Part shown: positions 16,787 through 20,367 of the stretch, piece by piece | How positions within the stretch are numbered: position 1 is the first letter of the stretch | Layout: each line of letters starts with the position of its first letter | Source: Thermococcus piezophilus | GTDB taxonomy: Archaea > Methanobacteriota_B > Thermococci > Thermococcales > Thermococcaceae | Direction: 5' to 3' | DNA length: 64,000 nt | Assembly (NCBI RefSeq): GCF_001647085.1 | Contig: NZ_CP015520.1 | Span: 62,001 to 126,000, forward strand | Notes under the pieces: model-generated | What the model saw: only the letters and a program-made list of their open reading frames with translations | What the model was told of the DNA's origin: nothing | Databases searched by the model: none | Made by a program: the position numbers and the translations under genes

Positions 16787-17302
16787 CTATTTGCCCCCGG
16801 ACAAATCTCCCCCTTTGCTTTCCATTTTGATAACGTAATCGGCGGCATTCTGAAGGGCCACAGAAAAGCCCGGCTCAACTCCTATAACTATCGTCTCCTT
16901 TCCCTTCCTCTTGACCTCGTTGATTATGGGCAGAAAATCCGCGTCACGCGTCGCCAATGCGATTACCTCAACGTCAGAGTTGTATATAAGCTCCATAGCC
17001 TCTATCGCTATCCTCACGTCGGTGTCGCCGGCAACGATTATCGGCTCAAGTCCCTGGTTTACCACCGCCTCTATCAGCCCCTGGGGCGCATACTGGTTGA
17101 GAACGACCTTGGCCACGCGAATCGTGCCGATCCTATCGAGTGCCTCAACTATGTCCTCCAGCTTTATCCAGAACTCCTTCCTGAGGATGTTCGGCCCGTC
17201 GATGATGAGGCCTATGCTCCTCTTGCTCTTCGGCTTTGGGGGTTTCTCGGGGGGCACTTCCTTCTCTCCACGCTTGAGAACCTTGAAGAGCGCCTCCTTC
17301 AT
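16787..17302 (-). CDS. NYN-domain (LabA/DUF88-like) putative RNase, acidic residues intact
   Basis: 171 residues. After a Pro/Lys-rich N-terminus the NYN (PIN-like) domain starts at IIDGPNILRKEF (Asp35), continues with AGDTDVRIAIEAM (Asp93, Asp95) and ATRDADFLPII (Asp120, Asp122), and ends in a Rossmann-like IVIGVEPGFS. These acidic positions form the metal site in NYN/PIN nucleases, so metal-dependent RNase activity is likely but unproven. Start overlaps the stop of the upstream paralogue (ATGA), so the two are translationally coupled. Matches the archaeal TIGR00288 group as I recall it. Confidence 0.85.
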   Translation of the reverse strand: MKEALFKVLKRGEKEVPPEKPPKPKSKRSIGLIIDGPNILRKEFWIKLEDIVEALDRIGTIRVAKVVLNQYAPQGLIEAVVNQGLEPIIVAGDTDVRIAIEAMELIYNSDVEVIALATRDADFLPIINEVKRKGKETIVIGVEPGFSVALQNAADYVIKMESKGGDLSGGK

Positions 17303-17811
17303 TCTCCCTCACCCTTTGGAGTCAATATTACTGCGTAATCCGCGGCATGTTTGAGCGCTGCACTGAAGCCGGGCTCTATTCCTATGACTATCGTCTCCTT
17401 TCCCTTCTCCTTTGCCTTGAGAATCACCGGCAGGAACTCCGCGTTTCTCGTGGCAAGGGCAATTACGTCGATGTTGGGGTTGTAGATTTCCCTCATGGCC
17501 TCAACGGCAAGCTTGACACCGGTCTCTCCAGAAACTACCACCACATCAAGCCCCTGGTTGGCAACTGCCTCTATCAGCCCCTGGGGCGCATACTGGTTGA
17601 GTATAACCTTTGCAACCCTGAGGTCACCAATACCCTCAAGGGCCTCCACTATGTCTTCAAGCCTAACACCGAATTCCTTTCGGAGGATGTTTGGGCCATC
17701 TATAAGCAATGCTATCCTCTTACCCCTGCTTATCTTCCGCCGCATCATTCCAATACTTCTCATCCCCTCCTTGGTTATCGAAACTATCCTCTCCCAGTTG
17801 CTACCTGACAT
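17299..17811 (-). CDS. NYN-domain paralogue with substituted acidic residues
   Basis: 170 residues, a tandem duplicate of the following gene (long shared stretches such as VLNQYAPQGLIEAV and KEKGKETIVIG-type ends). Only the first Asp (Asp38 in LIDGPNILRKEF) remains. DTD became ETG (96-98) and RDADF became RNAEF (122-126), so three of the acidic positions are neutral or altered. This suggests a regulatory or structural partner rather than a nuclease. ATG at 17811 begins MSGSNWERIVS; an upstream frame extension adds 15 residues without support. A TATA-like CTTTTTATAGG lies about 45-60 bp upstream (17855-17870). Confidence 0.82.
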   Translation of the reverse strand: MSGSNWERIVSITKEGMRSIGMMRRKISRGKRIALLIDGPNILRKEFGVRLEDIVEALEGIGDLRVAKVILNQYAPQGLIEAVANQGLDVVVVSGETGVKLAVEAMREIYNPNIDVIALATRNAEFLPVILKAKEKGKETIVIGIEPGFSAALKHAADYAVILTPKGEGE

Positions 17812-17881
17812 AGCTGTCACCGCTGTGATGGATGCATCGGATGAATTACGTGGCAATCCTATAAAAAGTTAGTTTAAGGCC

Positions 17882-20317
17882 TTAGCCAATTACCCGTTTA
17901 TAGTAGTACCAGAGCCCCCTGATGATGTCCCTAACTTCAATCATGGTGAAGATTTCCGTCCTGTCTATGAGCTTGGCCGTCTCTTCCCAGTTGTGGGCCT
18001 GCAGGACCCTGTAAATCAGCAGTTTTATCTGCCTCTCGTCGAGATACGGTTTCATCCAGCCGTCGAGGAAGTAGAGTTTGACTATGGGTTTAACCGCATC
18101 AACGACGGTATCGTATGTGAGCACCTTGCCCGTGAAGGCGTCGAGGCGCTTCTTCTGCGTCTCGGTCAGGTGTATCGGATAATCCACGGCTTCACCGAAG
18201 GGACTTTCAAAGAGCCAGCGCGCTATTTCGGGCTCCAAATCCCTGTGAGTATCGCCAAGCCACTCCGTGAGGCGGATTCTGAACTCATCGTTGGCCTTTT
18301 TTATGAGCTTCTCCGCCCTCTCGCTGAGGGGCTTGAGTACTATGGCCGTGTATTCCCCGCTCACGAGGTTCCTAGCGGGGCTGAGATGTACAACTGCAAA
18401 GCCGTTCCTGACCCAGAACCGTATGAGCTCTTCACTCGCGCCAAAGCCCGAGCCTATCCAGTCGAGGCCCTTCTCCCTCGCTTCCTTTTCGAGGAGCTCC
18501 AGTGCCTTGCTTCCAAGCCCCCTATCCATCGCGTCTGGATGCGTGGCGATTCTGACTATGCGGTAGCCCTTAAGCTTGGCAAACTCCTTCAGGTAGTGGT
18601 GCTTCACCATCATGTCGGGGATTATGTTGCCCCTCGGCTTATAGCCCTTGGCCATCTTGTCTATAACTTTCTTCGGGATGTTTCCTTCTTTGGCTATCTG
18701 TATGGCCGTTACTATTTTCCCGTTCTTCAGCCGCAGAACGCGAGCCTCGTGGTGGGGTGCATCCGCGAGAAGGGCCACGTCGCTCGGTCTGTTGCGATAG
18801 TGGGCGAGGATATATATGCCGACGAAGTTCCTCAGGTCTTTCCTGTCGTTTTCGAACCAGTCATCCATGTCGGGCTCCTCGAAGTAGACCTCCTTATTCT
18901 TAATCAGCTCGTAGTCCTCCTCGGTGAGCTTAACCGGCTCTGCATCGAGCAGGAGAACATCGAAGAGCCACTTCTCTATCGGGTCGCCCTCAGCATAACG
19001 TATCGGCTCGTCCATGTGGAGCTCCTTGAACTGGCGCTTCTCTTTTGCCCTTTTGAGGAACTTGACGGAGAAGCCCCTTCCAGCTCCTTCATAGCCGTGA
19101 ACCGTTGAGGAGTAAACCACGCGGGGCTTGTTGAGGTACTTGTGGAGTATCGGCACATGGATTCCAGCAGCCTCGTCGAGGATGTAGAGGTCGGCATTCT
19201 TTTTGTAACCCTCGGTCGGTGGATAATAGCGCAGGCCTATTTTCCTCGCGTAGAGCTCCTTTATGAGTCCCTTCTCTTCTATAACATTTGGATTGAAGCC
19301 GAGCTTTTCCAGAGCCCTCCTGGCGAAGCGGAAGAGGCTCTGAACGTTTTCTGGCTCAGGTGCAGTAATAACTATCCTCATCCTCTTTTTCAGGGCCAAA
19401 GCCAGGCCTATCGCCGCTATTCCAACGGAGACGCTCTTACCCCTGCCCCTGTCGGCGGTGAGAACGACCATACCCTCGTTCTCCACCAGCTCCTCAAAGG
19501 CCTTCAGGACTTCAACCTGGCCCCCAGTCAAGGCCATCTCGTAGAGCTCGCGCGGGAAGATAGTTTCTTCGGGAATATCGACGCCCTTTCTGGCCTTCAC
19601 CTTGGCCTGGCTCTTGTTCCGCTTAGGCTTCTTTTTGGCCTTCCCGTTCTCGGTGATTATGTAGATGCCATCGTGCTCAGTGAACTTTCTTATGAGCCTC
19701 CTGTTGAAGCGCTTCTTGACGTCGTCGATGGTGTACGGAGGAGTAACGAGGCTCTTGTGAAAGCCAGTCCACATGTTCTTCCACTTCTCGAACGGATGAG
19801 CCAGCACGAGTATTAGGCCGCCTCCCCTGACCGTCTCGATTATCCTTCCGAGGTCATTGGGGGAGTAGTCGTAGCTTAGGTCAAGAACAAGGAGGTCGTA
19901 GGTTCTTCCTAGTATGTCCCGGGTGTGCTTGAAGGTTACGGCCTTGACATTAACGTCAGAACCGGCCAGAACGTCGAAGTGCTTTCTAAAAGCCTCGTAC
20001 CGCTTCCTTCCGAAGGTTTCCTCTCCAAGGGCATCGGTGGCGTAGAGAACCTCGATTTTATCCTCGCTCTCATCGCGGAGCCTCTTCTCCTTCAGCTCGT
20101 CGATTATCTCGCTTAGAACCTTTGCAGAGGCTCCTGCTAGGATTCCAGCCAGTTCAGCCTTCCTCAGGCTGTCTCCTTCGATGACAATCATTCTCCTGTG
20201 GAACTTCTCAAGGGCCTGAGCGAGGGCCGTCTCGGTGAGCTTGAGAACGGAATCTTTAACTTTCTCGCTCTTGGCGTAGTCTCTCACTTCCTTGTCAAAG
20301 CGGACCTTGACGGTCAC
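17882..20317 (-). CDS. tmcA: RNA cytidine acetyltransferase TmcA/Nat10
   Basis: Makes N4-acetylcytidine in RNA using acetyl-CoA and ATP; the Thermococcus enzyme modifies tRNA, rRNA and other RNAs. 811 residues in order: N-terminal domain of unknown function, RecA-like ATPase with Walker A GRGKS (about 290-295) and DEAA box in LYILDEAAGIHVPILH, GNAT domain with the acetyl-CoA loop RGLGSKALELLEKEA (about 610-640), and C-terminal RNA-binding helical region. GTG at 20317 fits best (GGGAGGTGA five bases before); GTG at 20326 is in frame. A TATA box (CTTTTTAAATCC, 20348-20360) gives a short leader. Confidence 0.93.
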   Translation of the reverse strand: MTVKVRFDKEVRDYAKSEKVKDSVLKLTETALAQALEKFHRRMIVIEGDSLRKAELAGILAGASAKVLSEIIDELKEKRLRDESEDKIEVLYATDALGEETFGRKRYEAFRKHFDVLAGSDVNVKAVTFKHTRDILGRTYDLLVLDLSYDYSPNDLGRIIETVRGGGLILVLAHPFEKWKNMWTGFHKSLVTPPYTIDDVKKRFNRRLIRKFTEHDGIYIITENGKAKKKPKRNKSQAKVKARKGVDIPEETIFPRELYEMALTGGQVEVLKAFEELVENEGMVVLTADRGRGKSVSVGIAAIGLALALKKRMRIVITAPEPENVQSLFRFARRALEKLGFNPNVIEEKGLIKELYARKIGLRYYPPTEGYKKNADLYILDEAAGIHVPILHKYLNKPRVVYSSTVHGYEGAGRGFSVKFLKRAKEKRQFKELHMDEPIRYAEGDPIEKWLFDVLLLDAEPVKLTEEDYELIKNKEVYFEEPDMDDWFENDRKDLRNFVGIYILAHYRNRPSDVALLADAPHHEARVLRLKNGKIVTAIQIAKEGNIPKKVIDKMAKGYKPRGNIIPDMMVKHHYLKEFAKLKGYRIVRIATHPDAMDRGLGSKALELLEKEAREKGLDWIGSGFGASEELIRFWVRNGFAVVHLSPARNLVSGEYTAIVLKPLSERAEKLIKKANDEFRIRLTEWLGDTHRDLEPEIARWLFESPFGEAVDYPIHLTETQKKRLDAFTGKVLTYDTVVDAVKPIVKLYFLDGWMKPYLDERQIKLLIYRVLQAHNWEETAKLIDRTEIFTMIEVRDIIRGLWYYYKRVIG

Positions 20318-20367
20318 GGCCGTCACCTCCCGGCTTAAAGAGATAAGGAGGATTTAAAAAGATGGCG

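Follow-up and report, generated by a model that had tools for sequence, protein, structure and literature searches.

A conserved gene pair of Thermococcales predicted to encode an NYN-domain nuclease and an NYN-domain pseudonuclease

Two adjacent genes of Thermococcus piezophilus, located in the stretch of DNA analysed here (termed the window, 64,000 nucleotides), encode paralogous NYN-domain proteins of the TIGR00288 family. The product of the upstream gene (copy 1) is very probably a pseudonuclease, which would not cut RNA by the standard mechanism, and that of the downstream gene (copy 2) is predicted to be an RNA-cutting nuclease. Judging from the comparisons described below, we consider it somewhat probable that this pair arose by an ancient duplication and now acts together, with copy 2 as an endoribonuclease and copy 1 as a pseudonuclease in a heteromer. 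We infer the loss of catalysis in copy 1, the formation of the heteromer and the direction of regulation. The positions of the two genes and of the features discussed are summarized in Table 1. The two copies are approximately 60% identical to each other and are the only TIGR00288 members encoded in the 1.93-Mb genome. Copy 1 contains the GETGV and RNAEF motifs, whereas copy 2 contains the GDTDV and RDADF motifs.

Table 1. Positions in the window of the NYN gene pair, its metal-site codons and its upstream region
Feature	Position	Strand	Remarks
tmcA, putative tRNA-Met cytidine acetyltransferase	17882..20326	-	Neighbouring ORF; identity from the earlier sequence-only reading and protein make-up; not a constant partner
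TATA-box-like element TTTTTATA	17860..17867	-	Between tmcA and the pair; presumed promoter function
Shine-Dalgarno-like GGTGA before copy 1	17817..17821	-	GGTGA recurs ahead of many starts in other genomes
Copy 1 (ETG/RNAEF), 170 aa	17299..17811	-	ATG start at 17811; transcribed first; NYN TIGR00288, probable pseudonuclease; metal-site pattern D-G-N
Copy 1 N-terminal segment, residues 1-31 (W-E-R-I..TK-G..SI..RK)	17719..17811	-	Resembles single-copy relatives of the class; unrecognisable in copy 2
Copy 1 Asp38, retained (= copy 2 Asp35)	17698..17700	-	Residue alignment across genomes
Copy 1 Glu96, replacing Asp93	17524..17526	-	Conservative; outside the three core ligands
Copy 1 Gly98, replacing catalytic Asp95	17518..17520	-	Gly in 88/88
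Copy 1 Asn123, replacing catalytic Asp120	17443..17445	-	Asn in 88/88
Copy 1 Glu125, replacing Asp122	17437..17439	-	Conservative; outside the three core ligands
ATGA shared by the copy 1 stop and the copy 2 start	17299..17302	-	Read from the sequence; 51/88 genomes have this -3 overlap
Copy 2 (DTD/RDADF), 171 aa	16787..17302	-	NYN TIGR00288, predicted active nuclease; metal-site pattern D-D-D
Copy 2 catalytic Asp35 codon	17198..17200	-	VPA0982 D14; invariant
Copy 2 catalytic Asp95 codon	17018..17020	-	VPA0982 D92
Copy 2 catalytic Asp120 codon	16943..16945	-	VPA0982 D115

The TIGR00288 scores of copy 2 (214.4 bits) and copy 1 (200.8 bits) are both above the curated NCBIfam cut-off of 178.45 bits, and both copies also exceed the Pfam cut-off for NYN (PF01936). 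AlphaFold models of the two copies have pLDDT values of 82 and 83, with low confidence in the N-terminal segment of copy 1. The best fold matches of both models are VPA0982 (2QIP) and the MARF1 NYN domain (6FDL and 5YAA), with E values of 1e-5 to 1e-8, and this model comparison assigns an NYN/PIN-like fold to both copies. These closest solved folds are only approximately 15-20% identical in sequence to the copies, and a sequence search of the PDB gives a weak match to 2QIP only. They share the three metal-site aspartates with copy 2. A paired pseudonuclease is described neither for VPA0982 nor for MARF1 in the literature cited here.

The catalytic aspartates of solved NYN domains are D14, D92 and D115 in VPA0982 and D358, D426 and D452 in MARF1 (PMC11346440). 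In the HMMER alignment with 2QIP, D95 and D120 of copy 2 align with D92 and D115 of VPA0982, provided that the numbering is offset by three residues, presumably by a tag in the deposited construct. D35, the first aspartate of the strand-1 motif, is the counterpart of D14. Thus, copy 2 has the three aspartates of an active NYN ribonuclease, and these are invariant in 89 genomes. In 88/88 genomes, copy 1 keeps the first catalytic aspartate, and the second and third are replaced by Gly and Asn; it is therefore very probably a pseudonuclease. In the sequence-only reading, the altered residues belonged to the metal site, which the alignment with solved NYN domains bears out for D95 and D120. That reading had also stated that copy 1 has lost its acidic residues. 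This is correct for the changes of D95 to Gly and D120 to Asn, but is overstated, because two of the four changes (at copy 2 positions 93 and 122) are conservative replacements of Asp by Glu. D93, the first aspartate of DTD, had been taken as a metal ligand, but lies outside the structure-defined catalytic set of D35, D95 and D120. Asp38, Glu96 and Glu125 of copy 1 provide three acidic residues near the site that are invariant in 88/88 genomes, as they would be if copy 1 were an enzyme with a rearranged metal site, perhaps with another chemistry or substrate. Such an enzyme is improbable, because two of the three structure-defined ligands are replaced by Gly and Asn, and because MARF1 loses most of its activity upon the D426/427A mutation, which strongly lowers activity and affects the same place (PMC6294520).

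The distribution of the pair was analyzed by searching 94 Thermococcales genomes, of which 88 contain an intact adjacent pair. In all 88, both copies are adjacent and on the same strand, and at six positions copy 1 has the pattern D, N, E, G, N, E and copy 2 the pattern D, N, D, D, D, D. These results, together with the family scores, confirm that two adjacent NYN paralogues exist of which one is altered and the other intact, and the recurrence of the pair in 88 genomes rules out a sequencing or annotation artefact. A copy 1 orthologue with all of its acidic residues, which had been named beforehand as a finding that would speak against the loss, is found in 0/88 genomes. None of the 94 Thermococcales genomes searched contains one copy alone. 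The 89th pair (G029, L217), from a genome in two contigs, has an intact copy 2 and a copy 1 with a 5' frameshift just after IDGPNIL. The E/G/N/E residues and all later residues of this copy 1 are conserved downstream of the frameshift, which may represent a recent pseudogene or a sequencing error. The five genomes without a match are mostly incomplete, and G076, which is 96% complete, has no match either to the family or to copy 1 itself.

Two further kinds of TIGR00288 or NYN gene were observed in these searches. A third, dispersed NYN paralogue is present in genus g4 (L228-L233; G084, G079, G075, G078 and G077) and in G089 (L227). Its first catalytic aspartate is replaced by Asn (INGPN/VNGPN), but D95 and D120 are kept, so that its loss is the complement of that in copy 1. 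A third TIGR00288 gene with the full residue set, unlike both copies, lies in a fragmented genome on a small contig (L040, G091:C77) and is likely a contaminant.

Both copies are under strong and similar constraint. Across 130 close pairs, the median dN/dS is 0.027 (copy 1) and 0.024 (copy 2), and the numbers of invariant core columns are 70/133 and 69/133, respectively, in 88-89 species. These values rule out the decay of a redundant copy 1. Because 70 of the 133 columns of copy 1 are invariant, four columns taken at random would all be so in approximately 8% of cases, and the invariance of the four altered sites is by itself weak evidence. As would be looked for in a composite pair, one paralogue has the catalytic set, the other is without it, and both are constrained. 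In a tree built with the trait columns left out, copy 1 forms one clade (SH-aLRT 98) and copy 2 another (SH-aLRT 97), and therefore the duplication is older than the sampled genera. The identity between the copies is 0.686 within genomes and 0.682 between genomes, which, together with the separate clades, rules out homogenisation of the copies by gene conversion. The best tree groups copy 1 with copy 2 to the exclusion of single-copy relatives of the same class (support 88), but grouping of copy 1 or copy 2 with these relatives is also allowed (AU p 0.51 and 0.55). The distance matrices of the two copies correlate at 0.63, which is mostly species-tree signal. The ancient, uniform and retained change of the metal site suggests that the pair is a working two-part enzyme and not an enzyme with a decaying duplicate.

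The two copies have also diverged from each other in a reciprocal manner. Thirteen core positions are fixed differently between them; at four of these, which lie in or next to the metal site, copy 1 is the changed one. Almost all archaeal single copies have K129 and E132, and copy 1 retains both, but in copy 2 the charges on this helix are reversed, with E129 in 89/89 and R132 in 84/89 genomes. Likewise, the N-terminal profile of the single-copy relatives gives a median score of 8.1 bits for copy 1 and -1.9 bits for copy 2, compared with a 95th percentile of 3.0 bits for shuffled sequences. Thus, each copy is without something that its partner has kept, which is the metal site of copy 2 on the one side and the N-terminal segment and the charges at 129 and 132 of copy 1 on the other. 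Such reciprocal loss is the trace expected from a division of labour inside one complex, but is not proof of contact. It is also conceivable, though unlikely, that copy 1 is a stand-alone RNA-binding protein derived from a nuclease fold, which is co-expressed with copy 2 from an operon and forms no complex with it. The dN/dS values, which indicate separate constraint on each copy, and the degenerate sole copies of other archaea described below, in which the fold is kept without the full metal site, agree with this possibility. The strict co-retention and the gene overlap in the 88 genomes and the reciprocal loss fit a shared complex more easily.

The wider TIGR00288 family in archaea contains both complete and degenerate members. 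In relatives from the same class that have one copy only, the residue set is complete. These proteins (e.g. L070-L086) resemble copy 2 in family, fold and metal site and copy 1 in the N-terminal segment, but differ from the pair in being encoded by one gene, with all residues present and no pseudonuclease partner. In family f34 (8 genomes; L147-L149 and L236-L240), a second, non-adjacent copy with D120N accompanies a complete first one, so that a degenerate pair is present here independently; three of these patterns were tabulated and the other five were read from the sequences. In f18 (DNKESA) and f14 (DNDHHR), the sole TIGR00288 protein found with a full score is degenerate, and one contig (L031) has the pattern DNDNNA. 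The family may therefore have a role without catalysis. The recurrence of degenerate members is in favour of the fold having a lasting use without the metal, and an ancestral role that was partly RNA binding is possible. In some archaeal lineages (L038, L039, L142-L146, L235 and L241), the best or sole TIGR00288 protein is without most of the metal ligands (GKVE/RSAAY or IDVH/SRHAR).

The translational coupling of the two genes, noticed in the window, is kept across genomes, since most of those in which copy 2 does not start at the -3 overlap position have a deeper overlap. A TATA-like element is present 30-70 nt upstream of copy 1 in 64/88 genomes, compared with 19% of shuffled sequences. The sequence-only reading had linked the pair to tmcA. 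This gene is a same-strand neighbour in the window, but is not a constant partner, because it lies upstream of the pair in 63/88 genomes and because a separate TATA-like element precedes the pair in most cases. The constant linkage expected of an operon is thus not found. Because tmcA is also absent beside the pair in two genera (g3 and g4) and beside the gene of the single-copy relatives of the class, it represents a local neighbourhood and not a conserved operon, and a functional operon with tmcA as a general link is unsupported. The gene order bears on another possibility, namely that copy 1 inhibits the nuclease or acts as a dominant-negative brake on it, holding it inactive until it is released by a signal, as an antitoxin does. 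Copy 1 is translated first and is coupled to the nuclease, an order common in toxin-antitoxin pairs. Nevertheless, a brake of this kind is improbable. The mobile and patchy spread of type II toxin-antitoxin modules is not seen, because the family is present in 89/94 genomes and in 73/74 of those of good quality, and its near universality in the order is accompanied by very low dN/dS values. In addition, the single-copy relatives have the intact protein without a second copy.

Pairing of an inactive with an active domain has been described for human SMG5-SMG6 in nonsense-mediated mRNA decay (NMD), in which an inactive PIN domain completes the active site of the active one (PMC12923823) and also completes the RNA-binding surface of its partner. 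The archaeal pair resembles SMG5-SMG6 in consisting of paralogous PIN-like domains, one very probably inactive and one predicted to be active. It differs in that SMG5 and SMG6 are large, multidomain eukaryotic proteins of the PIN branch, whereas the archaeal copies are small, single-domain NYN proteins encoded by overlapping genes. Regnase-1 (MCPIP1) requires a PIN dimer for activity (PMC4772114), in which the second PIN domain gives residues near the active site of the first, but this enzyme is a homo-oligomer and has no pairing of nuclease and pseudonuclease. The CRISPR-associated NYN protein of Bacteroides fragilis (PMC11346440) is a prokaryotic ribonuclease with an aspartate triad as in copy 2, but is a single active Mn-dependent enzyme from a type III CRISPR locus. 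The NYN domain of MARF1 is monomeric in solution (PMC6294520).

The heteromer model is favored because of the pairing itself, the fixed change of the metal site, the equal constraint, the separate clades, the gene overlap, the reciprocal retention and the precedents of SMG5-SMG6 and Regnase-1. The monomeric state of MARF1 NYN, the degenerate sole copies in f18 and f14 and the frameshift in G029 copy 1 are points against it. According to this model, copy 2 would be the endoribonuclease, with D35, D95 and D120 binding the catalytic divalent metal. Copy 1, which keeps the fold, the first aspartate and an N-terminal segment similar to that of the single-copy relatives, would join copy 2 in the heteromer and would most likely position the RNA and/or complete or gate the active site of copy 2. 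RNA would be cut only once the complex has assembled, by analogy with SMG5 and SMG6. A further and more tentative proposal, which we regard as possible but rather doubtful, is that the two copies form an obligate composite NYN endonuclease, an archaeal counterpart of SMG5-SMG6 with an independent origin, in which the pseudonuclease gives residues or RNA contacts in trans, and that related archaea have repeatedly made degenerate NYN partners.

The family, the fold and the idea of paralogous pairing are already known. A literature search, with most subscription journals outside its reach, retrieved nothing on TIGR00288 or on an NYN pair in Thermococcales. A fixed archaeal gene pair of an NYN nuclease and a pseudonuclease was likewise absent from the literature searched. 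The pairing of a PIN-like nuclease with a pseudonuclease has been explained only recently, in human mRNA decay (SMG5-SMG6). If the heteromer model is correct, Thermococcales would provide a small, presumably heat-stable, two-gene version of this pairing, fixed across an order in which T. kodakarensis is genetically tractable, and the principle would be directly testable. It would also provide a first function for the uncharacterised family TIGR00288.
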